From the NCBI GenBank assembly GCA_963971425.1, contig OZ020526.1, forward strand, positions 4,801,976-4,865,975: 64,000 nucleotides of DNA, in the 5' to 3' direction. Shown piece by piece: positions 1,926 through 64,000 of this stretch; the stretch's first letter is position 1; each line of letters opens with the position of its first letter. Position numbers and translations under genes: made by a program. The DNA comes from Bryoerythrophyllum caledonicum (lineage: Eukaryota > Streptophyta > Bryopsida > Pottiales > Pottiaceae). The notes under the pieces were generated by a model. That model was not told where the DNA came from and did not search any database. It was given only the letters and a program-made list of their open reading frames with translations.

Positions 1926-2364
1926 GCCCTCATTGTTAAGTAAACATGGCTAATGCGCAACAACCCACACATTAAAAACACTCATGCTCACTACACTAAC
2001 TTATGATGTTTAGTGTATCCTCACTACAATCAGCCTACAAGAACATGTGTTACAACAACTATTTTTATCAACCCTTCAACGGTGAGATGGTTGTTTTTGG
2101 GTCAATTTGGGTATGTTTCTAGTGAGATTTCCTTGTGTGTAAGTTGGGTGCAACTTTTTTGGTTGAAACTTGTCTCACAATAGTGAACATCTTTCAAATG
2201 GAGCAATTACTGGGCGGATTGGTGCAAGCATTGGAGGCCTACAATGATTTCTGTGAAGTGGAGTCAACGTGGAATGTACTCAATGTGTAGATGCTCATGT
2301 GCATTATCTACTAGTTCTAGGGCAAGATCTATTACACTAATAATCGCCATATTTAGTGGGTGGT
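1926..2364. other. AT-rich spacer, nothing recognised
   Basis: No open frame, tRNA or named repeat was recognised here. Short TTTAGTG/CACTAA motifs around 1990-2030 echo the ends of family E and the 5.6-kb foldback element, so old repeat debris is likely. Confidence 0.4.
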
Positions 2365-2562
2365 AGTGAGTGTACCTATTGGTGGCCACCCACTAAACAT
2401 GGCAGCACACTTTGAAAAATTCATAACTAATGCACATATCATCGGAAAAGTATGAAACCACTTAGGTTGAAATTGTAATTCCAATAGCTATCACTGAAAA
2501 ATAAGTGTATTATAATATGCTCTTTCCATATAGGCACATTTGCTTAACCTATTGGTTCTGGG
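2365..2562 (+). repeat. Family D repeat, copy 1
   Basis: About 190 bp running from CTATTGGTGGCCACCCACTA through CTCTTTCCATATAGGCACAT. Close relatives occur at 9178-9362, 9608-9795, 24650-24845 and inverted at 32556-32750. All carry the CATGGCA(A/G)CACACTTTGAAA block and the TTGGGTTGAAATTGTAATTC block. The uniform length and lack of coding suggest a MITE- or SINE-sized element. Its termini are not defined. Confidence 0.55.
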
Positions 2563-2973
2563 GGATTTGCCTTATAAGAGTCGGCCTCCTCGTATTGCAC
2601 ATTCCCAGACCAAAACCATTTCATTATAGCAACCGCTCTTTATAGCAAGCAAGACAAAGAAGGTTGTTGTAGAGGGAGTTGAGTGTATATGATTTGAAAG
2701 TGTCATAAATTGTTGATTATTGTTCTTACCTTTCATGAAGATTTTTACTAAGAGCAAAACTATCTATACTACACCAAACACTAAACATAGTATCAATGCA
2801 TTAGTATTGTAGGTGATAAAAGATGTAGACCACATCAATTTTGGTTTTAGAATAGAATTAATGTGGATACATTTCAACGTGTGTCATGCCACTCACTGCC
2901 ACCTCACCGCCACACACTACCAAATATCTTCCACTCCTCGCCGCTCACCGCCACCTCTCCATCAATCTACACT

Positions 2974-3747
2974 AAGCTCTAAAGGCCCAAGGCATTTTCA
3001 CACCAAAAACACTTCAAAATTGTTCCTTCTACTGCAATGAGTAAGGAGGAAAATAAAAGTTAATATATCTACATAAAATCGTAGGATCCAAATTTAGACT
3101 TATCAAGTAATGTCCACCAAAAATTTCATAAAATTTGACCACACGGATTAAAAGATTATAGTTTTTGAATTGGAAAAATGGTTCATTTTCTTTCGTGCGT
3201 CGGGTGGATCAACAAACTCTTACTTCACTTGGTGTCAAATTTTTGCACTACTCAAGGTCTAAATTCATTACCATCAGCTTAATCATGATCTTAGTTCCTT
3301 GAACACCAATTTTTAGAGGTAAAGAAGGGGTGTAGCATATCCAAAACAATTGTGCAAGTAGTGGAGGCTCTGAAATTGACAATTCACGTATATTTTTTTG
3401 TGAATTGAATATATTATTGAATGAGAATCCAAACAGTCGGTAAGAACTTTTACACGACATCTTGTACTAGAGAAAATGAAATGTTAAAAGAAATGAAGAT
3501 CTCTAAGTTTTATGTGGACAAGAAGAAGTTTTTTGGTAGTGTGCTTGACAATGTGTGACAATGTGTAAAAAAGTTTGACTTGGGTAAATGTGCTATTTTT
3601 CACTGAAGTCGATATGAAAGGAAATAAATTGTTCAAAGCTTTAGTAATGTCCATCCACAAAGAAGAATGTTATAAATTGACACCATAGGAACCTGCCCAA
3701 ACCTTCAAAGAGTCTCATGAGGGAACTCTTGGGCCTCTAGGGGTTAA
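2974..3747 (+). repeat. Family A TIR element, copy 2
   Basis: Begins TCTAAAGGCCCAAGGCATTT and ends TTGGGCCTCTAGGGGTTAAC. The ends are inverted repeats built on (T)AAAGGCCCAAG / CTTGGGCCT. Internal blocks match copies 1, 3 and 4 collinearly. It is shorter than the other copies through internal deletions. No protein is encoded. Confidence 0.6.
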
Positions 3748-41442: not shown

Positions 41443-42994
41443 TTTATTATAATAAAAAATGGTCCAATACACGTTAGGTGGAGTACCTAGGTGAAACTTA
41501 GAAAGATATCCTTTGCATTAAAGCCTTTTGGAGGAATTACTTTGGCCTTTGGATGTGTTATTTGAATCAAATCTACCGTTTGAAGAAATTCTTTGTATGT
41601 GCCCTTCAGAGGAGTCCTTTGGATCTATCCTTTGATTAAGAATTTGGCTCATAGTAGAAAACGTATTGAATTTGAACATACTACTATGTACCAAAAATAG
41701 AGAAGTAAGTGCTACACATAGAATTCTTAAAATCATGATTTTTTCTTACATGTCAATTTAGAAAAATGTATATAGCCTATCATGACATATTAAATTTATT
41801 TGAATAAAACTATATAGTATACTACTCCAGGTATATAAAGTAAATGATGCATATCTAAAGTAAATAACGAGTATACAAAGTACCATATGCAATGGTCAAT
41901 TTTGTACATTATCAATTTGAAATGGAGAATGTCCAAATTTTTTAGAAATTTCAAGAGATTTGTCTAAGTGATTTCCATGCATTATCAGGGTGATATATGT
42001 GTAATTTTACACATATAACACATGCAAGGGCACAAACTTGTCAAATTGATTAAAAACGATAGCTTGAGGTACTACTTCCATTGGACCACTTTGATCTTTT
42101 GAAGTCCAAACAATTTAAATCCCAATTTAAATGGTTGTATTGTTTTTTTTTTGTTGGAAACTATATTCTATGAAAATTTTCAAATGTGGGATCTAACATT
42201 TGTATTTTTTATAAGAATCTCTATTAATTTTTATAATTATTACTTGAACTACCTTAGATTTATAGATATTGATGATATGCATTATATTGCATTGATGGTC
42301 GCCTTCTAAGTTTTGATGAATTGTTGTTGCTTTCATTGTGATGCACGTGGTGGTTGGAAGGTTGTCTTTTTTGACGGCTTCACATTCAATGCTTGTAGCT
42401 TTCATTTTCACCATATTTTATCTTGTCATATTTTTTTTAGATAAATTTGATGTTTGTCAGATTTTTCTATACCATACTTAATGCTTATGATTTTATTCTC
42501 ATTTTTATTTTTAACAATTTATTCATGAATAACATTTCCCTAATATGTTGGTTTATTATTTTTTGATTTTAATTTAAATTAAATTAAAAAAATATCCAAA
42601 ATGTGATTTTATTTCTATTGAACAATTAGTGAAATGTAACTAAGAATTATAATAAGGAAATTAAAAAATAATCCCAAAAAAGACAAAAATCTTGATAATA
42701 GAAAAATAACAATTAGGAAATAATTTAGAACTAAAAAATTTGTTGCTACTTTGTACTTTAAAAGAAAGTGAATAGACTCTCCAGTCAATTAAAGGTAAGC
42801 TTATCCTAGGGGGAAACAAATTTTCACTACTTGTGATTTTTGTTTTCGTTATACTTGATGTTTGTTCTTTCATTTTTACTATACTTGAAGTTCATGAATT
42901 TAGTTTTATTATAAAATTTTATGAGTTTATCACAAAATTAAATAACTTATGAAGTAAATCTTTAATGTTAATGATATGTATCTACTTATCCTTT
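41443..42994. repeat. AT-rich duplicated block
   Basis: 41520-41640 has further 26-bp-type units. 41908-41990 resembles 7583-7660. 42030-42410 duplicates 38640-39000 at an offset of about 3.4 kb. The remainder is very AT-rich and uninformative. Confidence 0.45.
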
Positions 42995-43759
42995 CAAGAC
43001 TCAAGAGCAATTACCCCACCTATAAACATCCCCCTACTAAATATACATTCAACCAAATGCAACCCTGAAAAAAGGCATTCTCACATCAAACAATACAATC
43101 AAAATCAATGAAGACCTGACACATACATATGAAGACAATGGGAGATACCTAATCACTATTCCCGTCACTAAACTCTAATGGTTATGGAACCAATACCGTA
43201 ACAAAATACATTCCTAGCTTTGATATACCAACACAACACAAACCTATCTCATAACACCACCCCTCTCTCCACATATCAAAACCATACCTCCTTAAAAATT
43301 GACCCCACATATAGTTACTATACAGATGGCTCCTTCAAAGAACCAATAGAAGCCAGTTTGGGTCATTGGCATAAAAAAAAAGCTGGATATGGTATGTACA
43401 ACTCATCCAAAGAAATAAAAATATCCAAAAGACTACATCAACTTCAAAATATCCTCATAGCGGAAATGATGGCCCTCCATAAAACCCTCCAAATTATCAC
43501 CACACTATATGCTAACAAACCCGCACACATCTTTACAAATTGTATAAATGTACTATATCTATTAAACACACAAATAACACACCCTACCTTACACAATAAT
43601 CACCCCGACCAAGCCATACTAACATCCATGGTTCAAATGCTACAAAATTGCACACAAATCACAACCCTCCATAAAGTTAGAGCACATGTCAACATAGAAG
43701 GAAACGAGCAAGTGGACAAACTAGCCAAAGAGGGACTAGATAAATTCCATAGAAAGGTC
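42995..43759 (+). pseudogene. LINE fragment with RNase H domain (left half of split copy)
   Basis: Homologous to the long LINE from about 61858 (CAAGACTCAAGA, CCACCTATAA, CTCTAATGGTTATGGAACCA against CTCCAATGGCTATGGAATCA). It then diverges into an RNase H domain absent from that copy: YYTDGSF (first Asp), AEMMAL (Glu), IFTNCINVLYLL, and VRAHVNIEGNEQVDKLAKEG (His and last Asp), within 43301-43738. The second catalytic Asp, expected in the TDS/TDC position, is Asn here, so the enzyme would be inactive. The front part has stops. The frame runs into an insertion at 43760 and resumes in the same phase at 45757. Confidence 0.75.
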
Positions 43760-45750
43760 TATGAGCCCCAAAAACAGCTCACAGTGGCAATTGGGACAAA
43801 AAGTCAATTCTTAACAATAAAAAATAGTAATTTAAGCAAGATGTTAAGTCTAAACCACTTTTTATGGATAAATTGGCCAAGTAGCCTTTTAAATTGTTAT
43901 TTTCCAATTTAGAAGTAGTATTTTTTCAATTTAGAATTTTATGTAGTTAACCAAAAAATAAAAACGTTAAAAAGGAGGGGCCCTATAATTAAAAGAACCA
44001 CTCTCAACCCATGTGTTTTAAACACAAGGAAAAGGGTTGAGTGAAAAGAAAAGGAAAAAATATAAAAGAAGGGAAGCCTTTAGAATTAAGTAAAATAAAA
44101 ATGGTTAAAAAAAAATGGAAGAGCTTGAAGTAAAAGCCATGGGCAACCACCATTTAATTAGTTAAAGTAGGCACATGTAAATGGTGCATGCAAATTAGGG
44201 AAAATTAGGTAGAGTTTAAACAATTACAATTGGAAAAGTGGCCTCAATTATTTGAAGCCCATGTGCTTGTCTTGTGGCAAAAGCTTAATTTAATGTGAGG
44301 TTAGCCGTTGAATTTTGGAAGCACCTCCTTAGCTATGGCTAAAAGGGGGTAAGGGGGAAATTAGAATTAGGTTAGGCTTAAAGGCGGCTATGGAGGCGCC
44401 CAACGAGGGGAACAAAGCTCTCAGGGAGCTGGCTGCGAGGGGGACACTCTCTCTCTGGAGGAACAAGGGGGAAGAGCCCGGAAGGAGTGTCTGCAAGCTG
44501 GGGAGTCCTACCGACGCAGAAAAGAGAGTTGTGTGTAGAGAGGGTAGGAGAGGGGAAGGACCCCGAGAGAAGAGAGCGGAAGCCCGGTTCGAATCAGTTG
44601 TGCGGCTGCGGCTGCCGGAGAATCGAGGTTGTGGAAGCACGGAACGGAGTGAAGCTGCAATCGAGTAGCAAATCTCTGAGGCGCGCAATTAGAAGGCTCT
44701 CGGTGTGGAAGGAGCGATGGCGGTGGCTGATTTGCGTTAAGGAGCCGTGAAGGCGAGGAGCGCCGAGAAAGCACTGAGGAGCCGTGAAGGCGAGGAGCGC
44801 CAAGAGAGTGCTCAGGAGCCGTGAAGGCAAGGAGCACGGAGAGAGCGCTGAGGAGTCGTGAAGACGAGGAGCACTGAGAGAGCGCTGAGGAGAGTTGAAC
44901 CGCGAGCAAAAGTGGGCGACCAGGCTGAGAGATTAGCTGCGAGGTTACTTGGCTTCCAATCAGGGAGCTTCCCCTCTCCCAATCTTATCGAACTCTCGTC
45001 TTGATCAATGCTAAAGTTGCGTTGTAAATCCTTGCATGTATTAGTGGTAAAAGATTTCCGGTCTTAACTTCCGTGCGGAAGCGCTGCCAATTTTTTTGCA
45101 AAAAATTAGGTTTCCCTTGAATCTAGGCATGAATCTTGCCATTGCATGATAACTGACCACTTAGTAACTAGCTCATGAATGGTTGGATGAGTGCATGTGG
45201 ATGTGCCTGGACGGTTGTGAATGTGTGTTGCGTGGCTGGATCACTACTGTCCGTCTGTATGTTGAAATTACCAAGGTCCAATGAATGTTTTGAGAGTCCT
45301 TTTGTTAAGAACACGAATTTGATAATGAACTTCTAATCACTGTAGGAGGAAAAAAATTGGAATTTGGGGTCCTAAGTCAAAAGATATGAGCTATTGAAGT
45401 TGGGCCATGAGGCAAGTGCAGAATTCAGTTCTAATCAGCCAAGCTTAATCAAAGATTCAAGGAGAGAGAGATTAAAAAGGAATTAAAAAAAACATAAAAG
45501 AAAATAAAAATAAAAATATAAGAGTAAGTTAAAGAAAAAAAAAGATAAAGAAAAGAAGAGAAGGAAGGCTACAAGAACGATAAAAAGAAAAAGGGAATAG
45601 TCCTAAGCAAAACAATCAAGTACCTAAAGACCCTCGTGATTCTTCTATGTATACATTTTTGAGCATTGATTGTGCAAGGGTTGAATCCTTAAAGTTAGGG
45701 CCTTGTGTTCAAATTGAATCTCCTATTTGGGGGAAGTTTATTTTGCTCAC
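43760..45750. mobile_element. 1,991-bp insertion splitting the LINE copy
   Basis: Flanked by AAGGTC on both sides (43754-43759 and 45751-45756). Removing it restores one reading frame of the LINE (KFHRKV continuing to KHPNEHAHG). The ends are TATGAGCCCC and TTTTGCTCAC; TGAGC/GCTCA near the ends is a very short imperfect inverted repeat. Inside are a TATA-like TATAAAAG at 44061, a GC-rich leader-like stretch (44390-44900) with a 37-bp tandem repeat, and an A-rich tract at 45480-45600. No transposase or polymerase frame is convincing, so the class is unknown (possible solo LTR or other non-autonomous element). Confidence 0.65.
44741..44888 (+). repeat. 37-bp tandem repeat, four copies
   Basis: Units start GGAGCCGTGAAGGCGAGGAG at 44741, 44778, 44815 and 44852, each exactly 37 bp, with a few substitutions. 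They lie in the GC-rich part of the insertion. Confidence 0.9.
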
Positions 45751-46950
45751 AAGGTCAAACACCCAAATGAACATGCCCACGGTACCTCATACTACCTCCA
45801 AAGAGAAAGCTGGCCTTCTATGGAAGACGCATCGGACAAAGGCCCCATCAAATTTTTAGATAGATACCTCAAAAAACAAGATTTAATTAACAACCTCGAC
45901 ATAATCTCAAATAGTTTCCTAACATCGACAAATGGATCGGTAATAAGGACATTGACAATGAACTCTCTACAAATTTTTGGGAAAATCCCACAATTTCAAA
46001 CTTACAAAAAACATGTATTATCAAATTTCATATGAGACAATACATGGGAAATGCCCGCAAACAACTCTTCTTCGGTATCAAAAGATTTCCATCCATAACA
46101 TGCCCAATATGCACATCCACGGATCCAGACACATGGCTACATGTACTCCTCAAATGCTAGAACCTCAATATACACTTTGTAATCGTCAAAAGTCACAATA
46201 AAACGGTATGGAAAATCCGTAAACTAATAATATCTTCTAATAAATCACGATGCTTCATACTTATGAATGCCGGAACCTTCAACAACACACCACAAGAAAA
46301 TACACTCCCTTCATGGCTACTTCCATGCACATGTGAAACCTAAAGATGTCACTGTAATGCTAGATTCAAACTAGACATACTATGTATCAAAGGACTACCA
46401 TATAAAGACCTCCCACCGGACCACATTAACACAAACCTTACTATCCAATTCATCAAATATTCAAATACTGCAATGATAGATTTTCCCCATAAGTTATCGA
46501 TTTTTTTTTTAATAAACACCAACCACTTACTAATGACATCACAGCTCTTGAATGGCACGTTGACCCCTTTATTGTCATCACCGCCGGAGTTAGAACTACT
46601 ACCTTTATCCCCTCTATAAAAGCCTCAAAAAAACATTCAATATGACCACTAACCCAATTAAAAGGACATTCACAACAATTAACACCATTGCTATCCAACA
46701 AGCAATGTCCATGTTCATACACAAATGAAAAACTGAAAATAACCAACCTCTCCACAAACTAAATAGTAGCCCGTGAAAATATATTTTAAAAAAAACCCTC
46801 TAAGAAACATATGATTGACCTCTACAAAATCATATCCTAGAACTGAGCCATGTGGCTCTTCTTGGTCCATGGTCTCTGGTTACTAGTTACTAATTACAGG
46901 TTACAAGTTACATAGTGTCTATCCTCGAGAGGGGGGAGTAGTTCCATACT
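45751..46950 (+). pseudogene. LINE fragment, zinc finger and REL-like end (right half)
   Basis: Continues the split LINE copy: linker (YLQRESWPSMEDASDKGP, RYLKKQDLINNLD), then NARKQLFFGIKRFPSI, CPICTSTDPDTWLHVLLKC, NAGTFNNTPQE and RFKLDILCIKGLPYK, collinear with 62619-63487. The conserved acidic residue of the FIEF motif is Lys here (IQFIKY). Several stops and frameshifts are present (for example after WLHVLLKC). The 3' untranslated part ends with a hairpin at 46919-46941 shared with the long copy. The linker before RYLKK is not in the long copy. Confidence 0.75.
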
Positions 46951-51899: not shown

Positions 51900-54400
51900 G
51901 ATGCACAACAACAACATGCAAAGGACACACACGGCACCTCACCATCAAACAACCGTCTCAGCTAAGTTACTACCTCTCTTGTCTATCATTTTGCCTATGA
52001 CTTATGTTTTTGAAATGCATATATGCCGCATAGCTCCACATGATAGATTACAGGGGTACAAAACAGAGTTATATGGATCTGACTGCAGCCAAGCCACTAA
52101 GTCTAGCCCTAGTCCGCGCAATCAAGCAGTCTTCATAGAAGACACTCTCCTACGACGAGCCGAATATACAAATGTAATATACCTCTCCCGAAAGACGAGG
52201 GCCCAATCAGGAACAAAGCCTGCGACTGCACAGACACTCACAGCTCGAAGGAGCTCGATAGACCAGAGAAATGATGGTGCCTGCGCAGACACTCATAGCT
52301 CGAGGAACCCAACATCACCAGAAAAGCGTAAGCAGCAAAGTCGTCAACAACACCTGACGATACATTGGAAGAGCAAGAGGCCCAGTCATAAGAAGGACCC
52401 AACAACATATGCGAACCGCGAGCCACTCACTCGCGGACAAGACACAACAGCATGCGTGAAGCGCAGGAAAACCAATCACCATCAATAGGATCGCCAAGCA
52501 TACTCAGAACCTGCTCTCCATGACCTCGCCTGCCCTCACCAACTCTCAACTATCCTAAACCACGCCGAAAGAGCAAGCGCCGAGAACTCCCCATCGACAT
52601 CTTCCATGACAAAGTTGCGCCAAGATCCGCCCTGCAGGCAACAGAAATCCCATGCCCTGCAACAAACAACAAAAAAGGTAAGAACACTAAACCTCAATCT
52701 AACCACTTACTGCATCTTGTATGTAATCCATGTGTACACAGAAGGATCTGAGAAGGATCATACAAGAAAACAAGATCAACATCCCACCCTCATGATAGAC
52801 CACAGCACCAACAACTCACGACCTAGCTGTAGAAGCCCCCCCCAAAGGAACTCAAGACAAGATACTCCAACAAAAACTCTCAGCACAAGATCTGCAAGGC
52901 GAAAGGGACGTCAACAACAAAAAAAAAAGCAAATACAAGAAGACCGAAGACCTCACAAATAAAAACGTCGCCCTCCAGGTAAGTATCCCTCAACCCTACC
53001 TAGCTCCCCACCATGCATTTAATTTGATGGTAGATGCAAGATACAGGAAAAAGGAAGAATCACAACATGTTGATACGAAGAAAAGAGGAAAACAACAAAG
53101 GTTGAACAAGGGACATAAGCAAAAGATCAAAACACTGAAGGAAAATAACAAGACGCGATGAATGCAGGTAAGTCCACATCACCCAAAACTTGTACTAAAA
53201 CGTGCTGTGAATTTTCAGGACCCAGTCACAACATCAAGTGAAGACTTAGCATGGAGATGCACCAAAAAGACCAGCGGCTACACGAAACAACGCCTCCAAT
53301 AGAGATCCCACCAACGGCCACCAAGAAACCCTAATCGCCACCCATAACAAGAAAATACTCCAAGAAAAGATCAAGAAGCCGCCACACCAAATCTCAATTG
53401 GACAACTCCCAAAGCAGATCATAGAAGGAAAACCTAATCGACTTCAACGACAACAGGGTAATCATACATCACCAATCAAGACATCCACCGAACCCTACCA
53501 AGAAAAAAGGTACAAAATCCACCCTTACCTCTAGATCGAATCCTCTTTCATTTGTGCCCCTCACCGCATCCCCACTCCCTACAAGTGCAACTGCACACCC
53601 CATCAGAGCATCCTTGCCCCCAGTCGCTGTAAAGGTAGAGGAGACAATACGCCGGAACAGACGCCCGGTAGGCAGCCTGCGTAAGACCCTGGACACAGAC
53701 GCTCCTACATCCCGATCGAAGTGGAGATCAGCCGCAAGGACGGAGAAGACTACCTCCCTCGAACGCAGCACCGTTCGACACCAGAGTGTCTGCAACAGTC
53801 CCCTCTTTCACCTGTGTGACTTTCTCGCTGCAAATTCTTGTCACATTTGTATACCCTAACAGTATTACTAACTGTAGATTCCCTCTCTTTCCAGAAACGA
53901 GCAGACGACAATAGCATATACAGATCCGCCAAAGCAGACAGATCCAGAGGAGCAACGTAGCAACAGACTTGCACTACTAGATAGAACCTCACCAAAGCGT
54001 ACAGATCCGGACCGAAGCTGTGAAGCAGCAAGGAGACGAGACAAGAAAACCAAGCATGGTGTACGAGCATACACAAGGAGGACTCGCTACGCGCACAGGC
54101 ACACATAACAGGCGAGCCCAGGCCACAATCCGGGAGCAAGAAGAAGTCGCAACAAACGGAGACCCTGCAACGCGCACAAACACCCAACAAAGGAGAGAGA
54201 GGACCAGTAAGCTCCCGGGGCGACAACAGACCAAGCCCCAAAAGATACCCGCGAAGACTAGACACAAGGGAGGGCCGCACACTACGACGAGACTCCAAGC
54301 CCCTGGGCAAGCGACAGCCCCAAGCCCTCAGCAGTCCCTCGACGCCCCAGGTCCGTACACCTCACTCAAACTCGTAGTAAGTACCACTTTTCTCTTTTCC
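51900..54400 (+). other. A/C-rich region with candidate short introns
   Basis: Plus-strand composition is strongly A/C-rich, interrupted by short T-containing stretches that begin GTAAG and end in AG: 52678-52741 (GTAAGAAC to ACACAG), 52979-53040 (GTAAGTAT to GCAAG) and 53168-53218 (GTAAGTCC to TTTTCAG). A TTTCCAG-type acceptor at about 53896 and a GTAAGTACC donor at 54377 extend the pattern. It may be a spliced leader or non-coding transcript, or the 5' region of the LINE that follows. No conserved protein is recognised in the exonic parts. Confidence 0.4.
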
Positions 54401-54691
54401 CACTTAACAGCCTATTGTGAAGGTTGTTTTAAATGTAAGCATTCACAACTTTGTATAAATTTTGGTGACTCAAGGTGTGACCCCAATTTAAAGGGCATAC
54501 CTCACTGTCGATGTCTGGTTCGGTCTTGCTTAATTAAAAGTCTTAGAGTCTTGGTGTTATTGCATGTGGATGACTTGCCTTCAACAAGCCCACAAAGTAA
54601 GTTGTGGGAAGAAGGCAAGCTCCAAACTTGTCAAACGGTAGTAACGGCTTTGAAACAACACCCTACCACTTGGCTTTTTCTTTGGATCAAC

Positions 54692-56286
54692 ATGTCTTGC
54701 TCACAAGCTCTCTTTGCGTCATCAAAAGTTGTAGACATGCTTGATTTGGTTGAAGTCCATAGTGGAGGAAGTCCCCCTCCAAAACGCAGTCATGATGAAA
54801 TGGAAACCACGCCAATCTACAAGAAAGTGAAGGCAACAAGTTTGTTTAAACTAAAATATTGGCTAGGTTTCAAGTCCATGAATACTATTGCATTCGAGTC
54901 TAGCATGCCTAGAGTATCTCTTCTCTCAATAGAAGATTTGATGAAAGGGGGAATGACCAAAGGGGAGGCAGAAGAATACTTTATAGCAATTCCCTCCTTC
55001 CCATATGTACTCCAAGAAGAGTGGCCCTCAATAAGACCGGACGGAAAATTGGGCAACCATTTTAACTTAACCCAACTTCCAAGTGAAGTTGAGGTTGACA
55101 AAAATGGCTTTGCCCATGACTATCACATCTCCATTCACTTTGAGATTGGTGACCAAATACTACCTAGGGATAGCATTCATGAGATGGTTGTGGAGAGACT
55201 AAATGAAATGAACATCCCTACAGGGGATGTGTTGGGGGAACCGATTGCTATCATGTGCTACCACAAAAACACGAACTGGAGTGGAAGTATTAAAATCCAC
55301 CTCAAACACCCTGAAATTGATTGAAAAAGTCTTTTGCAAGGGAAAAGACCCTTCATCCTAAAATTGGATGAAGAGATCTCACACTTGGGAAAAGTGGGCA
55401 AATCATAGGATTCCTTAGCCTTTGCAAACCTCCTCTCCATCAAAATTACGGGTGAAAACCTAGTGGAAAAAGAGTGGTTCAAACTTCACCACCAAATTGT
55501 GGTTGAGAGCTTTGCTAGAGGTTTTGATTTCGAAATTACCGATGTCCAGAAAAAGAAAGAACATGATTTTGCTTGGGTCAAAACACCATCACCGGATCAG
55601 GCCCAAAAAATCAAAGTTCATAAAGTTGCCTTTTTGAATGAGATATTTGAGCCAAGTTTGCAAGCAAAGGGAAAATGGGGGAAGAGGAGATTGCAAAAAA
55701 GAAGGCTTTGATTTTAATTGCAAAAAACCTTAACAAAACCAAAAAAATAGAAATACTTGAAGAAGGGATCAAAGAAGTGCTTGGCAAGGGAAATGTTGTG
55801 GGGATGTATTTCAAACTTGAGAAAGGTAAACATGTAGGTGTTTGCAATGTCCAATGCTTGAATGCGGCGGTGTATAAGAAACATGTGAAAACAACCGTCA
55901 AAATATTTGGAAAGTATGTTGAATTCATTGCCCATCCAAAAAGTCAAGATGGTAGTAATGCTCCTTCTCAAGAGGCACTGATGAAACTAGGGTTTAACGA
56001 TGTGAACACCGCAGTTGCAAATGCGGTAGTAGCTATGGCAAACAAAGGTCTAAATCAAGAAGATCTCAATAAAGTAGTAGAAGTTGCAGTCAACAAAGGG
56101 TCAATTAGCACCATTGACGAGATCCGGAAAGAAATGAACATCATGAAAGGAGAGATTGTACTTGAAGCCCGGCTATATGTAGACACAGTACAAGCAGCGA
56201 TGACGAGGACACTTAGAGGAGAAATGAAGAGCCTAAGAGCTAACCTCATCCAAACAATAATGGACGCAGAAGAGGAGGCCAACTGA
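54692..56286 (+). pseudogene. LINE ORF1 (gag-like nucleic-acid-binding protein), broken
   Basis: Probable ORF1 protein, which in LINEs binds the element RNA. The first frame (54692-55321) stops at 55322 and again at 55406. The same frame continues to about 55700, then shifts by one to 55675-56286. Visible parts: KRSHDEMETTP and a basic patch; a first RRM-like region around IAIMCYHKNTNWSGSIKIHL; a second beta-alpha-beta region KKALILIAKNLNKTKKIEIL to VKIFGKYVEFIAHP; and a C-terminal helical, charged stretch (EIRKEMNIMKGEI) that could form a coiled coil. No CCHC knuckle is seen. The frame is open upstream to 54020, so the true start could be earlier. It ends 47 bp before ORF2. Confidence 0.6.
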
Positions 56287-56333: not shown

Positions 56334-58745
56334 ATGACCCCCAACGCGATGGATACTACAACACTTATTAACAATAAAAATAATAATAAAAGTAAAAAAA
56401 ATATTATTATTATTATTAAAAACCTAAAACACCACATATTCCTTAAAAGAAATTTTAAAAATCATAAAATATATGCTAATAATATTGTTAACAACAAAAT
56501 TAATAATAAAAATAAAAATAAAAATTTAGCCATCAAAAACAAAAAACAAAAAATTAAAAACAACCCTGACCCCAAAAAAATTAGAAGTAAAAACAAAATA
56601 TTAAAAACAAAAAAACTTAACAAAACGATAACAAAAATAAAAATAAAGAATATAGGGAAAATAACCCAAAAATTTGAAAATAGAAATACTACTCTAAACC
56701 AACAACTAAAACAAATAACCAAGATACCAACAGATATAAATAACCAAAAAAAAAAACATATTACTATAACGACTACCACAAAAAAACAATTAGAAACCAC
56801 ATACAAACTATACAATAACCTCCCCAAACCCAATCTCTTTACCACAAGACACATACCAAAAAAACTTATATTATCACTCAATAACATTACACTAATACTT
56901 ACAAAAATAAAAAACACACCAAAACTAAAATATCAAACATACGGACTAACCACAATATACAAAGATCACACCATACCTTTAAAACAAAACAAAAAAAGAA
57001 ACATAGAATCAAAACCACGACAAATATCAAATGTACCAACAAAATACCCAACAAACATTAAACAAACTAATAGACAATGCGCAAAATACCCCATCAAATA
57101 CTATCCAAATCTGACAAAAAACATACACATGTATATATATAAAAATACTAAAATAAAAAACAAACAAATGAAAAAATACACAAAATACACATGCATACCA
57201 ATAAAACAACGTATTAAACCTCTTCACTACAAAACCATATTATTACTAAGTGGAGATATAGAAACCAACCTGGGACCCATGCCCAACATACTAAAAAGAC
57301 ACCCCCCAACACACAAGAAAAATGCCAAAATATACTTCATACCAAACACCATAAAACTACAACCAGAATACACACACATAGCTAAAACATTTGCACCACT
57401 CTTAAAACCCACTCATTTGTTACATCAAATATATAATACAACACACCCCAATATTGCCCAATACATCCAACAAAAAAATACACACCCACCAACACATATA
57501 TTATATTCTCTTATAGTAACCATACACCCTAACATTGACGAATGCAACCGCATTTTAAACCTACTAAACCCAAATATAATCACATGGACCAACAACTTAT
57601 TAAACACCCTATCAAACCTACAAAATCCACCCGAAAGACATATTCATATCCCACACCCCTATACAAAATTTCTTGAAGAAAACCAAAACATCATAAAACA
57701 CGGGGACTCCATATACAAAGAACTATACGACTTTTTACATAGTCAAAACATACCTCCTTCAAACATCACAATAAAACAAAAATTTCCCTACCTCCCTAAC
57801 AACCTTATAAATGAATCACTAAAATGCTTTGACCCCATTCCAAAATATACCCACCCTCCCCCCCCACCTCCTCACCTCCCCCCACAAAATCAAAGCGTTA
57901 ACTCAACCAATGATAACACATACATAATTACATGGAATGCCTCATCACTAAATATTGCACTCCCTAGCTTACAAACCCTGATCACTAATACTAACACACC
58001 CCCAGCCATCATAGCTATACAAGAAACAAAACTATCGGCCACAAAATCTACAAAATATATACAAAACATATTCCATGAAAATAAACTCATCTTTAACAAC
58101 ACTCATGCATTAACGAGATGCATCCAACAACGTAGACCATATACACCGGGCCGAGGCGGCCTCCTTACACTAATTCACAAAAAATATGCTTTCCCAGGCA
58201 ACATTACAAAAATCCCTACACCTATACACATATCTCCTTACCTTCAAATAATTAAAATCGCTAATCAACCACTACAACCATGGTTAATCTTTCACATGTA
58301 TATGCCCTCCCATCCTGAAGATATCAGATTTACTATAGACATACAAAATAATATTACAAACCAAATAAATAATTACCCAAACCACAACTACATGCTATGT
58401 GGAGACTTCAATAGAGATATAGCTCTAATTGGCCGTCAAAATGGAAACCATATCACTCCCCCGCAAACCACACACTATCAATGGCGACACTTTACGGAAA
58501 ATCTAAACTTCACCTACATCAACACTGATACACAATACTCCAGACAAGGTGGACACAACTATAACGGCTGGAGCTTAATAGATGGCTTTTATATAAATAC
58601 AAATAACAATACACAATACACCTCTACCACAAACAAAGAAACTACTCTCAACTCTGATCACTCGCCTATGCAACTCCACATACCAAACAACATACTAATT
58701 AATCGTACCCCTATAACCACAACCAATGATACACACGAATACTAA
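56334..58745 (+). CDS. LINE ORF2 N-terminal part: 2A-like motif and APE endonuclease
   Basis: An 803-codon open frame, the longest intact part of the element. Residues 1-300 are Lys/Asn/Ile-rich low complexity. Residues 306-315 read SGDIETNLGP, a 2A-like ribosome-skipping motif with Leu in place of the first Pro of the NPGP core. About 215 residues of unassigned sequence and a poly-Pro stretch follow. The APE/EEP endonuclease, which nicks target DNA for target-primed reverse transcription, spans about 530-790 and retains all motifs: TWNASS, AIQETKL, GDFNRD (about 690), SLIDGFY (about 747) and NSDHSP (about 773). The frame then ends at 58745 through a frameshift, because coding resumes at 58742 in another frame. 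The first ATG may not be the ancestral start. Confidence 0.75.
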   Translation: MTPNAMDTTTLINNKNNNKSKKNIIIIIKNLKHHIFLKRNFKNHKIYANNIVNNKINNKNKNKNLAIKNKKQKIKNNPDPKKIRSKNKILKTKKLNKTITKIKIKNIGKITQKFENRNTTLNQQLKQITKIPTDINNQKKKHITITTTTKKQLETTYKLYNNLPKPNLFTTRHIPKKLILSLNNITLILTKIKNTPKLKYQTYGLTTIYKDHTIPLKQNKKRNIESKPRQISNVPTKYPTNIKQTNRQCAKYPIKYYPNLTKNIHMYIYKNTKIKNKQMKKYTKYTCIPIKQRIKPLHYKTILLLSGDIETNLGPMPNILKRHPPTHKKNAKIYFIPNTIKLQPEYTHIAKTFAPLLKPTHLLHQIYNTTHPNIAQYIQQKNTHPPTHILYSLIVTIHPNIDECNRILNLLNPNIITWTNNLLNTLSNLQNPPERHIHIPHPYTKFLEENQNIIKHGDSIYKELYDFLHSQNIPPSNITIKQKFPYLPNNLINESLKCFDPIPKYTHPPPPPPHLPPQNQSVNSTNDNTYIITWNASSLNIALPSLQTLITNTNTPPAIIAIQETKLSATKSTKYIQNIFHENKLIFNNTHALTRCIQQRRPYTPGRGGLLTLIHKKYAFPGNITKIPTPIHISPYLQIIKIANQPLQPWLIFHMYMPSHPEDIRFTIDIQNNITNQINNYPNHNYMLCGDFNRDIALIGRQNGNHITPPQTTHYQWRHFTENLNFTYINTDTQYSRQGGHNYNGWSLIDGFYINTNNNTQYTSTTNKETTLNSDHSPMQLHIPNNILINRTPITTTNDTHEY

Positions 58746-59293
58746 ACTCCATCCCAAAAGATAACCTAGAAAAATTTAATACAATGTTTTTTGAAAAAAA
58801 CTCTATACAAATTGACTCTATAATAAACACCCTAGAAAATAATAACCAACTATCTCAAACACAATGGCACGAAACTTGCCACACTCTAGACATCTCCCAC
58901 ATTTTAGAAAAAACCTGTAAAGCCCCACCAATACCAAAAATGACAAACCGAACATCACAACAAGGAGGTTACCTACCCCGCAAAATCTCAAAAATCTGGA
59001 AACAACACCTAGGTACATATCATATAATATAAAAAACTATTAGAATTGTAAAAAATAACCCACAATGGCATAACCACCCCATATGTAATGAATTGTTGAA
59101 CCTGCAAAACACCCAAATCCCAGCCCCACCTTCCACAGGCCAACCCCACGATATATGGTTACAAGATATTGCCCTCATCGCAAAAAATGCCAATACACAA
59201 GCCCGAAAAATAACTACAAAATACTCTCAAGACAATATTAAAAAAGCCATCTCAAAATATAGGCAAATGTACGAAACTAGCCCCAAAAAATAA
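58742..59293 (+). pseudogene. LINE ORF2 linker between APE and RT
   Basis: Continues ORF2 in a shifted frame (LNSIPKDNLEKFNTMFF onward), with a stop at 59030 and another at 59291. It contains GGYLPRKISKIWKQHLGTYH and AISKYRQMYETSPKK, resembling the RT-preceding segment of LINEs. Duplicated ATAAATAG/GATAGTCTTT sequence at 59285-59330 follows and breaks the frame again. Confidence 0.6.
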
Positions 59294-59337
59294 ATAGATT
59301 TCGATAGTCTTTCGATAAATAAATAGTCTTTAAAAAA

Positions 59338-61580
59338 TCCGATTTCCCACCTCTAGATTGCATCATGGACCAAAATAATAACATTCTAACTAGTCCAAAA
59401 GACATTTCAAACAAAATATTCAACCAACAGACAAAAAATAATAGACCCATGATACTGTACCTACATGCAACTATCAACCACAACACTCATCTGAATGCAC
59501 ATGTGCAATACGCCAATACCCATGGCATGACCTCAATGGATTCGTATTAGAAAAATGAGGAGAACCTAAAATACCATTGCATACATACTTTAATAAAGCC
59601 ATATATGATACATGCCTCTGTAACCTTAGAAATAACAAAGCCCCAAGGCCGGACCGAATACCGAACTCAATACTAAAAAACATGCCCCCAAGATTTCATA
59701 AACTCCTCTTTCTCTTCTTTTCCCATTGCTATAAACAAAAACAAATACCAAACTCATGGAAACAAAACGCAACAGTCCTAATATACAAAAAATGAGACCC
59801 TTCAATATTACCAAATCATAGACCAATTGCACTAGCCAACACAATATATAAACTCTACACGAGCACACTAACCTCTATTCTTTCCTCATACGGAGAAAAA
59901 TTCCGAATCCTACACGATAGTCAAGAAGGATCTAGAGCAGAAAGAAGCACCTCCAGACAAATACAAACTATAATAGCAGCACTTGAAGACGCACGCTTCA
60001 CAAATCAAGATATATATCCTATATGTCGACTTCAAAACGCCTTTGGCTCTATTGACCACACTCGACTATTAGCTATATGGAAGGACATTGGATACCCAAA
60101 AGACGCAACCACACTAGTCGGAAACATTTACTCCCAAACATCTACATACTACACAGGCGAGCACTTTGGAAAGACTAAGCCTATACCCATCTATAGAGGC
60201 ACTATACAAGGAGATACCCTTAGACCATACATGTTTATCATATTTCTAGAACCACTACTTAGATGGTTAGAACGAGGCAATAATGGATACACCTTTGGTA
60301 CATCGCATACTACCATAAACTCTGCGGCCTACGCCGATGATTTAGCTATCATAACCAATACAATAAAACCACTACAAACACAAATTGATAAAATTGAAAG
60401 ATACTGTAAATGGACTGGTATGGACGTAGGCGTCCCAAAATGTGCTGCCACTGGATGCCCAAATAAATCCAAAACAAATCCAACTGCTTTTAAAGCTCTA
60501 ATGCAAGCCTCGAACATCAACTACCGAGGCCAACCAATCCCTATACTGCACCAAAATGAAGCATATACATACCTAGGTATAAACCTTGTTCCTTCTCTAA
60601 AATGGAAAATCCAAACCCACACCACGACCTCAAAACTTATCAATCAATGTAAAGAACTAACCACATGCCCGGCTACCATGAAACAAAAAAATAAAATGGT
60701 TGACACCGTAATACGCCCAGGTATAGCATACAGCTTCTACGCTGTACCATACTCTATGCCAGCTATCAAAAAACTTGATCAAAAAATAATAGCCTTAAAA
60801 AAAACCATATGTGGCATGCCAAAATGCATGTCCAACGCACTAACCCAACTCCCACACAACCTATTTGGACTCGAAGCTTTCTCTCTAAAAAATGCCTACC
60901 TCAGGTGCATAGGGGAACAATTACAAAATGCCTTAAATGACAAAGGAAGGCTCGGGATAATATACTTCGGACTAACTCAATACATACTTGTCCAATTTGG
61001 AGGTGCCGAAAAAATATCCAAAATTAAAAAATCGAATTGTATAAGATCACCAATAACCCGTACACTTTTCTTATTAAAACACATAGCCAAAGTTCATCTT
61101 AAGAGCACACTACCAAAGTTCCTCTACAACCAATCACCACTAGAAATAATATGGCAACAAGAAACAAGAAACCACAACACACTTAGCGCCCAACTCTCCC
61201 AAAAACTATTACAAAAACTCCTATCAAAAAACATCCTTGAACTAAAACAAATCACTCTACCAAACGGCACACACATCACGAATGATACAGACTTCAAAAC
61301 CTTCCACTTCACTCCATCCAAACTAATCAAAAGCGCCCTAAAAGTTGCTAAACAACTTTTTTGCCACCCAACATATCCACCTACAACCACAAGTGACATC
61401 CCTTATAACATACACCAATACTCAAACACACTCCAAGACCCATTTATAACCACCGATAACAACATCCTCCCAAAAACTACCATACCACCAATACATCCTC
61501 CCAAGAACTACCATACCACCAATACATCCTCCCACCCCCATATACCCACGTTACCCCCGCCCCCCAACATACATCACTAA
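59338..61580 (+). pseudogene. LINE reverse transcriptase domain, broken
   Basis: 59338-59520 is read in one frame (CIMDQNNNILTSPKDISNK) and 59520-61580 in another, with stops near 59556 and at 59793. RT motifs: NNKAPRPDRIPNSIL (usual KAPGPDG), PNHRPIALANTIYKLY, then QNAFGSIDH, GTIQGDTLRPYMF, and the active site AYADDLAI with YADD at 60330-60341. The motif A aspartate (VDFK) is readable only in another frame at about 60027-60038, between two compensating one-base changes, so it is lost from the long frame. TYLGINL and the thumb region follow. A 31-bp direct duplication at 61463-61524 shifts the frame shortly before the end. Confidence 0.8.
61463..61524 (+). repeat. 31-bp tandem duplication in the LINE
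   Basis: Two 31-bp units, 61463-61493 and 61494-61524, differ at one base (CCAAAAAC against CCAAGAAC). Since 31 is not a multiple of 3, the duplication shifts the reading frame. Confidence 0.85.
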
Positions 61581-61618
61581 AAATCCCACCACATACCCTA
61601 TTAATAACTTTATATGAC

Positions 61619-62618
61619 ATGAACATATACAACATATAGACACCAACGGAATACAAAATACCAATATAAAATACCTATGCCAATGGCAACAAAACAACTA
61701 CACTTTCAATAAATGGCTCCCTCAAAGAAACCTCTTTCCAAGACACGACTGCAATACCTCCACATATAACGCTGAAAAACTAAAAGAATACTATCAAAAA
61801 ATAAAACAAAAATTCTACTTGGAAATCATTCAAGCCCATCACCCCCAAGAACAAATACAAGACTCAAGATCCGTAACTCCACCTATAATCATCCCACTCC
61901 TCAACATCTATACAACGAAATGTAATCCCGAAAACGATATTATCACAACCTCAAACACAATTAAAATAGAGAACAACCAAGCTCATCTATATGAGGCAAA
62001 TGGCCGACATTTACACACTATCCCCACTAATAGACTCCAATGGCTATGGAATCAATACAACAAGAAACTACAAATCCCTACAAATATTGAACCAATAATC
62101 CAACCATTCGAAACCGAACTAATTTGGCTATACCAAAGATATAAATACCGCACCCAAAAAAAAAATCCCCTAAAAAATGCACAATACACAATACCCAGAC
62201 CTATCCTAGACACATTAATCTCATCCTTTAACATCGAACAATCATACTTCTCATCCCCCGTCACATGCCCCACCAAATTAAAAAAATTCTACTCACCCTT
62301 TGAAAGAGATAAAGTATTTGGCTCATTGGGGAAGGCCTTTGACCATAAATGGGCCGGTAAAGATATAGCTCACCCCCACAACGAGGAGGAAGCCCAACAA
62401 GCACTACACTGGGCTAGACTTGCTGCTAAAAGTGACCCACATCACTCATCCACACTCATTATCACACCGGACAAAAACTAGTACCAAAACGATAACCCAC
62501 AATCAAGTCCATTTGCAGACTCGCACATCATTGCAATATTCGAAGCAGACTCAATTGCATATGAAGAACCTACTATTCCACCTGAGCAAAAAAAACCTAG
62601 AATTGAACCTTCTACAAA
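61619..62618 (+). pseudogene. LINE ORF2 segment with an unassigned domain
   Basis: One frame runs from about 61619 to 62478, meets a TAG at 62479 (after IITPDKN, probably a lost Trp), and continues to about 62618. The first part contains PLLNIYTTKCNPE and LQWLWNQYNKK, shared with 42995-43200. From about 62085 there is a compact domain: FETELIWLYQRYKYRT, IPRPILDTLISSFNIE, then FYSPFERDKVFGSLGKAF, EEEAQQALHWARLAAKSD and STLIITPD, ending in a Pro/Glu-rich tail. The pattern slightly recalls PCIF1-like N6-adenine methyltransferases, but this is weak. In the split copy this place holds RNase H instead. Confidence 0.55.
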
Positions 62619-63487
62619 ATAAATACCTCAAAAAACAAGACCTATACAACAACCTTGATACAATTTCAGACAACTTCCCCAACATAGAAAAATGGACTAA
62701 TAATAACGACATAGATAATGAACTCTCCACAAACTTCTGGAAAAATTCCATCATCACTGACTCTCAAATAACATGCATTATTAAATTCCGCACCGGACTA
62801 TACATGGGAAACGCCAGAAAACAACTTTTCTTTGGAATGGAAAGATTCCCATCCATAACGTGCCCAATATGCACTTCCACGGATCCTGACACATGGCTAC
62901 ATGTCCTACTTAAATGTAATAACCACCACATACACGCCCTAATTATCACCCACAACAAATCGAGATGTTTCATCCTTATGAATGCCGGCACCTTCAACAA
63001 TAACCCACAAGAAAACACAGTGCCACCATGGCTACTCCCATGCACATGTGTAACCCAAAGATGTCATTGTAATGCTAGACTTAAACTGGATATACTCTAC
63101 GTTAGAGGCCTACCATACGACCCCCCACTTGACCACATAAACCAAGGTTACACCATCCAATTCATCGAATTCACATATTGTAACGACAGATTCTCCCCGG
63201 AAACAATCGGAAATAAAATCAATAAATACCAACCCCTTATTGACGACATCACCGCCCTCGGGTGGAATGTGGATCCCCTTATTGTAATCACTGCTGGCGC
63301 CCGGGCCACCACCTTTATACCATCTATAAAAATCCTGGAAGATACCTTCAAAATTCCTATTGACACAATAAAAAATACTTTCAATAATATTAACATCATT
63401 GCCATACAACATGCTATGTCCATCCTCCTACATAAACGCAAAATTAAAAACAACCAAATCCTCCCCGTTACACATGACCCCCCATAA
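62619..63487 (+). pseudogene. LINE ORF2 C-terminus: zinc finger and REL-like domain
   Basis: Starts at a frame change at about 62619 (KYLKKQDLYNNLD), which also marks the point where RNase H-side sequence is missing. NARKQLFFGMERFPSI precedes a zinc finger CPICTS...WLHVLLKC (Cys codons at 62861, 62870 and 62915, His at 62900). A second Cys-rich motif CTCVTQRCHC follows, then KLDIL (Asp at 63089), IQFIEFTYC (Glu at 63167), NKINKYQPL (Lys about 63224), and GWNVDPLIVITAGAR. The order Cys-rich finger, Asp, acidic-hydrophobic strand, Lys-x-x-x-Tyr parallels the restriction-like endonuclease of R2-type LINEs. The frame is open to its stop at 63485-63487. Confidence 0.65.
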
Positions 63488-63637
63488 AATCTCTTCTCCA
63501 CTTTGCCTTCAAAACCACAACACGTAAACACACCCCCCCTCACCACCTTCTTCCCTCCCCACTTTTTTGTTTTCCTCCCCCTCTTTTTGGAGCCTTCTCA
63601 TTGGGTTTGTGGTTTTTGGCCACTTGTTTCATAGTAT

Positions 63638-63660
63638 CTACCCTCAAAAGGGGGAAGTAG
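63638..63660 (+). other. LINE 3' UTR stem-loop
   Basis: CTAC and GTAG pair outside a CCTC/GGGG stem with an AAAA loop. The counterpart at 46919-46941 has CTAT/GTAG, CCTC/GGGG and a GAGA loop, so a base change in the outer stem keeps pairing as U-G. Both are followed by TTCCA and CTAA-containing sequence. It is probably the 3' signal recognised by the element's reverse transcriptase (inference). Confidence 0.55.
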
Positions 63661-63706
63661 TTCCAGCTCACTAATTCCCTGTCTGGTGGACTTGGTTTTA
63701 GTAGTG

Positions 63707-63770
63707 GAACGAACGGACACTTTATTCACGCCGGCCTCCTTCGGAGACCGGCGTTCTTCTTCTTCTTCTT
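63707..63770 (+). repeat. Dispersed hairpin module, best copy
   Basis: ACGAACGGACACTTTATTCA, then the palindrome CGCCGG-CCTCC-TTC-GGAG-ACCGGCG (63729-63753), then a TTC microsatellite. It matches 14884-14934 and 10330-10387 on the opposite strand. It lies just beyond the LINE 3' end and is not shared with the other LINE copy, so it belongs to the flank. Confidence 0.6.
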
Positions 63771-64000
63771 CTTCTTCTTATTTCTCCGACAAAAAAATTA
63801 AATTTCCAATGTTAAAAACTATAATTTGTACCCTGCTTTGGATGGAAGATTTTTGGGTTGTAGCAATTTTTATGTACATCAACCGAAGAATCTCCTAACC
63901 ATGGCGGGGTTTAAACTATAGATTTTGATCAACATTTTTTGCTCATGATACATAAATACATACAAATAGTGCCAACCATGGTGGTTCAGTGAAGACGCTT
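63771..64000. other. Window end, nothing recognised
   Basis: AT-rich sequence with a 70-codon frame covering the TTC repeat. No domain is seen. Confidence 0.4.

Follow-up and report, generated by a model that had tools for sequence, protein, structure and literature searches.

A Non-LTR Retrotransposon Family With Two Probable Endonucleases and a PCIF1-like Domain in a Moss-like Streptophyte

Introduction

Dualen/RandI elements, described from Chlamydomonas and cryptophytes, are non-long terminal repeat (non-LTR) retrotransposons in which an AP-endonuclease-like endonuclease (APE) and a PD-(D/E)XK-type endonuclease occur in one element (PMC3636483; PMC4640811). RNase H has been reported for Dualen/RandI (PMC4640811), and 3' repeats other than poly(A) for 8 of 8 algal RandI families (PMC3747384). 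The position of Dualen has been used to argue that APE-bearing long interspersed nuclear elements (LINEs) arose when an AP-type endonuclease replaced a restriction-like endonuclease, or RLE (PMC4640811). Here, we describe a LINE found in a 64,000-nucleotide stretch of contig OZ020526.1 (the window), at positions 56334-63487. A first-pass annotation, made from the sequence alone, had proposed that this LINE carries both endonuclease types. It had taken Dualen to be known from green algae, which is correct for Chlamydomonas and too narrow overall, LINE/Dualen having been annotated as expanded in cryptophytes as well (PMC12747079).

The RLE of LINEs is recognized by a CX2-3CX7-8HX4C knuckle, RH at the first helix, a PD and a D/E as acids, and a KX2KY lysine (PMC5678591). 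In R2Bm, the catalytic residues are Asp996, Asp1009, and Lys1026 (PMC10499050), and mutants of the corresponding enzyme are named KPD/A and K/ARNKY (PMC6895275). A LINE with a methyltransferase-family domain is also on record, SymbioLINE-Dnmt of dinoflagellates (PMC5890265).

The stretch in the window is a dead, internally deleted copy of a large non-LTR retrotransposon family. From its intact relatives, we consider it very likely that this is a dual-endonuclease family of the Dualen/RandI type, one that is abundant in its moss-like streptophyte host and was active there recently; the likeness to Dualen is drawn from published descriptions. We first present the intact copies and the two endonuclease domains, then the family in its host, the PCIF1-like domain, and the competing explanations.

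Intact Copies of the Element

Two copies of the same family (family A) keep open reading frame (ORF) 2 open from stop to stop, over 3,757 amino acids in L040+L041 and 3,087 in L058. In both, the order is GDIETNPGP, APE, reverse transcriptase (RT), chromodomain-like segment, PCIF1-like segment, RNase H, CCHC knuckle, and RLE. When the copies are queried in pieces, Pfam finds APE, RT, RNase H, and PCIF1_WW in each of them (APE at E=1e-6 and RNase H at 1.7e-14 in L058; RT of an intact copy, PF00078, at 7.1e-27). APE, RT, and RNase H all keep their catalytic motifs. RNase H (PF00075) is matched at E values of 1.5e-14 to 4.8e-13 in L041, L058, L059, and L060, and the PCIF1-like segment, RNase H, and RLE are colinear in a single alignment in 18 distinct copies, some of which contain stops. 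Thus, the proposal of two endonucleases in one element is supported at the level of predicted domains, both intact copies holding the two in one open frame.

A second family, B (L059-L061), has the same domain order, with 66-68% identity to L041 in its RLE; for L060 and L061, the reading begins at the PCIF1-like segment. L059 carries two frame changes: RT to knuckle lie in one frame, and the RLE acids continue in another. The APE of L059 is assigned from its motifs and from a sub-threshold PF14529 match (E=0.0023).

The window copy is degraded in comparison. Its ORF2 is split by several stops and frameshifts, and it lacks 271 amino acids present in L040/L041, including RNase H: residues 1-104 of the L041 frame correspond to window positions 62305-62616, and residues 376-680 to 62618-63484. 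The RNase H expected of a Dualen-like element is therefore found in the intact paralogs and has been deleted here. The motifs quoted in the first-pass annotation are present as described, whether in the APE (TWN 57930, QETK 58020, GDFN 58401, LIDGF 58575, SDH 58653) or in the RT, knuckle, and RLE (YADD 60330, CPIC...H....C 62861-62917, KLDIL 63083, FIEF 63161, KINKY 63215), and its APE assignment agrees with the PF03372 match in the window frame (E=7.2e-6). The extent that it gave to the element, 56334-63487, is that of ORF2; the copy reaches further on both sides, with ORF1 remnants from about 54770 and a 3' untranslated region (UTR) to 63779. It missed the PCIF1-like domain, the chromodomain-like segment, and the decayed 2A motif.

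The C-terminal Domain and the RT

In L041, the C-terminus contains a CX2CX9HX4C knuckle, one residue over the published range, followed by KRHN, KPD, a Glu 27 residues further, and KIDKY 16 residues beyond the Glu. This is the order found in R2 (knuckle, RH, KPD, acid, KxxKY). Across 11 aligned rows, drawn from families A and B, E200, K216, K219, and Y220 do not vary, nor do the ligands of the knuckle; KPD or RPD is found in most copies and RH in most rows. The ratio of nonsynonymous to synonymous substitution rates (dN/dS) of the RLE has a median of 0.079 (range 0.04-0.29; 166 pairs with dS >0.1 among 19 aligned family A rows, three further translated copies, each with a stop, being omitted) and is 0.05-0.07 in comparisons with L041 at dS values of 0.88-1.4. 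Shuffling the L041 sequence 300,000 times never reproduced the full motif order and gave the core 74 times and the knuckle 456 times, with spacing limits widened or set after inspection of L041. The published motif order, its retention in family B, and the purifying dN/dS together support a predicted R2-type RLE at the C-terminus.

Among solved structures, the best matches of the L040 RT are R2 chains (E values of 4.9e-32 to 2.6e-28), followed by LINE-1 chains from 2.9e-22 and by R2Bm at 1.1e-16; R2 therefore comes first, though R2Bm ranks below LINE-1. Placement of the RT had been suggested as a check on the layout. A midpoint-rooted tree of 11 rows, whose references are four L1 and three R2 sequences, unites families A and B in a single clade (100/100) and keeps them separate from L1 (99/98) and from R2 (97/95). 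In this tree, the RT stands outside both the host L1s and R2, which speaks against placing the element in the L1 clade.

Abundance, Age, and Host

The C-terminus (window 62369-63484) was used as a query against the 437-Mb assembly containing the window, which gave 11,654 first-look candidates, 110 of them scored, and 200 matches. For the paralogs listed, identity across the matched part is 82-94%; more than 20 of the listed rows sit in open frames of more than 2,000 amino acids (maximum 3,757). A 29-nucleotide piece of the 3' UTR has 1,012 exact matches in the genome, 509 on one strand and 503 on the other, whereas the reversed piece, used as a control, has none. In a genome search with PF12237, 42 of the 150 scored rows have an identical score and E-value (50.6 bits, 4.0e-11), and 33 of these 42 lie in a 3,087-amino-acid open frame, L058 being the sole one read. 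These 3' end counts, long open frames, and identical scores point to an abundant and recently expanded family. Viral contigs searched with the RLE and RT yielded no relatives.

The assembly contains a LEAFY gene (E=1.3e-27). To our knowledge, LEAFY is confined to streptophytes, so the host is a streptophyte, and the layout is extended to that group as the first-pass annotation had anticipated. The LEAFY DNA-binding domain reads KPKMRDYVHCYALHC, with an Asp at a site where we take this residue to be typical of moss LEAFY. A moss host is therefore likely, if not proved. The genome has seven matches to the LEAFY SAM domain, six of them scattered and far weaker than the best.

ORF1, the StopGo/2A Motif, and the 3' End

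In a copy named C7, a 1,412-amino-acid ORF1 frame overlaps the start of the ORF2 frame. By tblastn, C7 ORF1 matches the window at 54770-55672 (47% identity) and 55651-56001 (62%), with no match in the part of the open frame at 53981-55321 that precedes 54770. The 203-amino-acid ORF at 55675-56283 is thus an ORF1 remnant. In the genome, all 150 scored rows match this remnant (the best 150 of 2,635 first-look candidates). Besides the window, 23 of the best 31 ORF1 matches are followed on their strand by an ORF2 module no more than 25 kb downstream, at 5.3-5.5 kb in 16 cases; 23 of 31 is a lower bound, this comparison having been made between the best ORF1 matches and 33 picked ORF2 rows. For L058, no ORF1 match was found in the 4.1 kb upstream, which contain no masked base. 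Since 33 copies share its frame length and score, an ORF1-less subfamily may be spreading.

The core StopGo/2A pattern, (D/G/C/N)(V/I)ExNPGP as given in PMC12846837, is matched by candidate motifs in the ORF2 of both families, DIETNPGP in L040 and L058 and DIEQNPGP in L059. L040 has two further, imperfect 2A-like stretches, GGELEINPGP and GGDMETNPRP. In the N-terminal part of its ORF2, between the 2A-like motifs, lie tandem repeats at 2358-3091 (123 bp x 6) and 3483-3610 (12 bp x 10.7). A 2026 survey reports no evidence of StopGo use by plant viruses (PMC12846837), which makes a natural motif of this kind in a plant genome noteworthy.

Common to the 3' UTRs of family A is a stretch with a predicted fold that ends in a hairpin, followed by 1-8 TTC units where they could be parsed. 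The consensus fold, from 15 aligned ends of 32 read, has 41 pairs; in five of these pairs both sides have changed, and two of the five belong to the hairpin. L013 is an exception, with a CTT run of more than 200 bp in place of the terminal hairpin. L017 appears to have inserted next to sequence, now in its 3' flank, that by eye resembles the family's own ORF1. The 18 of 31 3' flanks that were parsed showed no target consensus.

The PCIF1-like Domain

PCIF1, also called CAPAM, is the cap-specific adenosine N6-methyltransferase (m6Am). In the window, the corresponding Pfam domain, PF12237, scores 44.1 bits (cut-off 31.1; E=2.2e-11), and in L058, L059, and L060 44.8-46.5 bits. Among solved structures, the segment matches PCIF1 alone, and weakly (E=0.03 in one search, 0.14 and 0.57 by profile). 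The module made up of the chromodomain-like and PCIF1-like segments is contiguous in every one of the 136 scored genome matches, of which the window is one, and nearly all of them span the whole query. For the first of these segments, the likeness to a chromodomain is tentative: CBX4 is matched at E=0.58, and a profile search of solved structures gave CBX4 (0.07) and CDY1 (0.09) among 17 weak hits that include cryptochromes. A scan of one family B piece found no Pfam Chromo match.

In 14 copies with dS >0.3, dN/dS of the PCIF1-like segment is 0.06-0.21 (0.12-0.15 in seven), several of the other values being computed over partial alignments; RNase H, for comparison, has 0.04-0.10 and the RLE 0.05-0.10. 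The segment is thus under purifying selection, less strict than that on RNase H and RLE. In PCIF1, the NPPF motif is essential for catalysis. The alignments set ANPPF of PCIF1 opposite AHPHN, so that NPPF is replaced by HPHN or HPHT. AHPHN is found in 21 of the 23 distinct family A copies listed (24 rows, L025 and L042 being one place, and many copies near-identical); L017 is decayed there, and L038 has AHPYN. Five family B copies have AHPHT. As the segment has been kept by selection with NPPF replaced, it is probably a retained module that does not methylate.

It could instead be an active N6-adenine methyltransferase that marks cap, RNA, or cDNA by means of an altered active-site motif. The same dN/dS values and the conservation of AHPH itself in both families would fit such an enzyme, whereas the replacement of NPPF in nearly all family A copies speaks against it, and we regard activity as unlikely. 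For a non-methylating module, a role in reading the cap can be imagined: the pseudo-methyltransferase would hold the RNA of its own element by the capped 5' end while the RT holds the 3' hairpin, and the polyprotein, gripping both ends of its template, would complete full-length insertion of a template of more than 12 kb, each nuclease being dedicated to one strand. We offer this detailed scheme tentatively and think it rather doubtful.

The domain differs from cellular PCIF1 both in its motif and in being embedded in a retrotransposon protein. When a cellular PCIF1 was sought in the host by scoring the best 150 of 2,614 candidates with PF12237, the top four loci (L054-L057) read as copies of the element; a cellular gene may lie lower in the ranking. 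In SymbioLINE-Dnmt, the methyltransferase-family domain is a cytosine methyltransferase, DNMT, located in ORF1 (PMC5890265). The PCIF1-like domain of the present family lies in ORF2. We know of no kinship between that DNMT and PCIF1.

Evidence Against Two Endonucleases and Competing Explanations

Several observations weigh against the dual-endonuclease assignment or parts of the description above. The first acids of the putative RLE are 27 residues apart in L041 vs. 13 in R2Bm; the window row is one residue shorter, in keeping with the 26 first reported. Some hallmarks are missing in individual copies: RH in the window, where the 11-row alignment shows the stretch containing it to be absent, and in L013; the Pro of KPD in L038 and in the window, which reads KLD; the Asp in L009. 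No solved structure, R2 included, matched the C-terminus in a phmmer search and two profile searches of the PDB, and a query made of RT and RLE matched by its RT alone. AlphaFold models from one or three window-only rows have a mean predicted local distance difference test (pLDDT) score of 39 and 31 and support no claim. In the RT tree, branches are long, references are few, and the program warned of long-branch joins. L058, submitted as a single 3,087-amino-acid query, listed RT and PCIF1_WW but not the other domains, and Pfam Chromo stays below its cut-off of 25.1 bits in intact copies (15.6-15.9 bits, E values of 0.012-0.016). Finally, three copies with uncertain 5' ends (that of the window, L040/41, and L058) were examined for a target-site duplication, and none convincing was found.

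Taken together, the points on the C-terminus could mean that the element is an APE-only LINE, in which APE cuts alone and the conserved C-terminus is a zinc-binding nucleic-acid domain that is no longer, or never was, a nuclease. APE-only LINEs, among them the three host L1s examined (zf-RVT type, L066-L068; APE motifs readable in L066), likewise end in a CCHC knuckle, and they share an RT with the element. The RLE core, in contrast, is found in none of the three. The invariance of the Glu and KxxKY, the presence of KPD/RPD and RH in most rows of two families with 66-68% identity in the RLE, and the low dN/dS also argue for a nuclease, and we find the APE-only explanation quite improbable. That the RLE or PCIF1-like segment comes from a neighboring or nested element, as the broken frames of the window copy and a second decayed copy about 10-16 kb upstream might suggest, is already refuted, barring assembly error in all, by the unbroken frames of two family A copies, the RT-to-knuckle frame of one family B copy, and the 136 contiguous modules.

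Features of the Window

The coordinates are collected in Table 1. The second copy in the window retains the RNase H lost from the main copy (PF00075, E=3.9e-11); it is split by about 1.7 kb without match to the element. In family B, a 234-amino-acid frame (ORF3) lies 3' of ORF2, alike in the three copies read and without Pfam match in the one copy scanned.

Table 1. Positions of the element's features in the window and of ORF3 in family B.
Feature	Position	Strand	Evidence or remarks
ORF1 remnants, shifted frames	54770-56283	+	tblastn of C7 ORF1; open frames 53981-55321, 55409-55708, 55651-56283
ORF2, broken by stops and frameshifts	56334-63487	+	
StopGo/2A motif, decayed (GDIETNLGP)	57249-57278	+	GDIETNPGP in intact L040 and L058
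APE	57927-58673	+	PF03372, E=7.2e-6; motifs N, E, Y, DxN, IDxF, SDH
RT with thumb/linker	59559-61310	+	PF00078, E=2.9e-7; frameshifts near 59795 and about 60000
Chromodomain-like segment, tentative	61618-61740	+	weak CBX4 match; Pfam Chromo below cut-off in intact copies
PCIF1-like (CAPAM) domain	62083-62616	+	PF12237 over 62083-62400; AHPHN at 62368-62382; stop at 62479
Internal-deletion junction (271 amino acids including RNase H removed)	62616-62618	+	alignment to L041 frame
CCHC knuckle, CX2CX9HX4C	62861-62917	+	all four metal ligands kept in each of 11 rows
Putative R2-type RLE	62918-63300	+	KLD 63083, E 63167, KINKY 63215; RH stretch deleted
3' UTR	63488-63779	+	folded region, terminal hairpin 63728-63754, (TTC)n tail to 63779
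Second decayed family copy	42953-46773	+	RNase H 43220-43912; RLE pieces 45859-46773; interrupted about 44000-45700
ORF3 of family B	L059 reverse strand, from base 8208 of complement; L060:2747-3448; L061:2779-3480		

Proposed Mechanism and Significance

Beside the domain order, single open frame, conservation, selection, and predicted 3' structure described above, we infer a mechanism, each step of which is conditional. A single RNA would encode ORF1 and the giant ORF2, and the StopGo/2A motif would release the repeat-rich N-terminal part from the enzymatic part during translation. The ORF2 protein would then recognize its own RNA by the folded 3' end and (TTC)n tail, and begin target-primed reverse transcription. 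The two endonucleases may split the cutting: our guess is that the priming nick comes from the RLE, which lies beside the RT as in R2, and that APE contributes to the other strand or broadens the choice of target. RNase H would strip the template RNA, the chromodomain-like segment may direct insertion to marked chromatin, and the PCIF1-like segment, its catalytic NPPF lost, would probably bind a substrate, perhaps the capped 5' end.

Compared with the known systems, the family shares with Dualen/RandI two endonuclease types (the RLE as predicted here), RNase H, and 3' repeats other than poly(A). It differs from them, as far as published descriptions allow, by its streptophyte host, its 3.1-3.8-thousand-residue frame, and its StopGo, chromodomain-like, and PCIF1-like features. 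In contrast with R2, it adds APE, RNase H, and ORF1, has the wider acid spacing, and shows no site preference in the flanks parsed. Among the open-licence papers listed on PCIF1 with retroelements and on Dualen, we found no such land-plant element, and hence no land-plant description of two nucleases and a PCIF1-like domain in one protein. What is new is the host, together with the added PCIF1-like, chromodomain-like, and StopGo features, and above all the conserved PCIF1-like domain.

Being young and abundant, with many copies that retain long open frames, this dual-nuclease family of a land plant is tractable for asking which nuclease makes which cut. Its PCIF1-like domain would link a LINE to an enzyme family of cap methylation.

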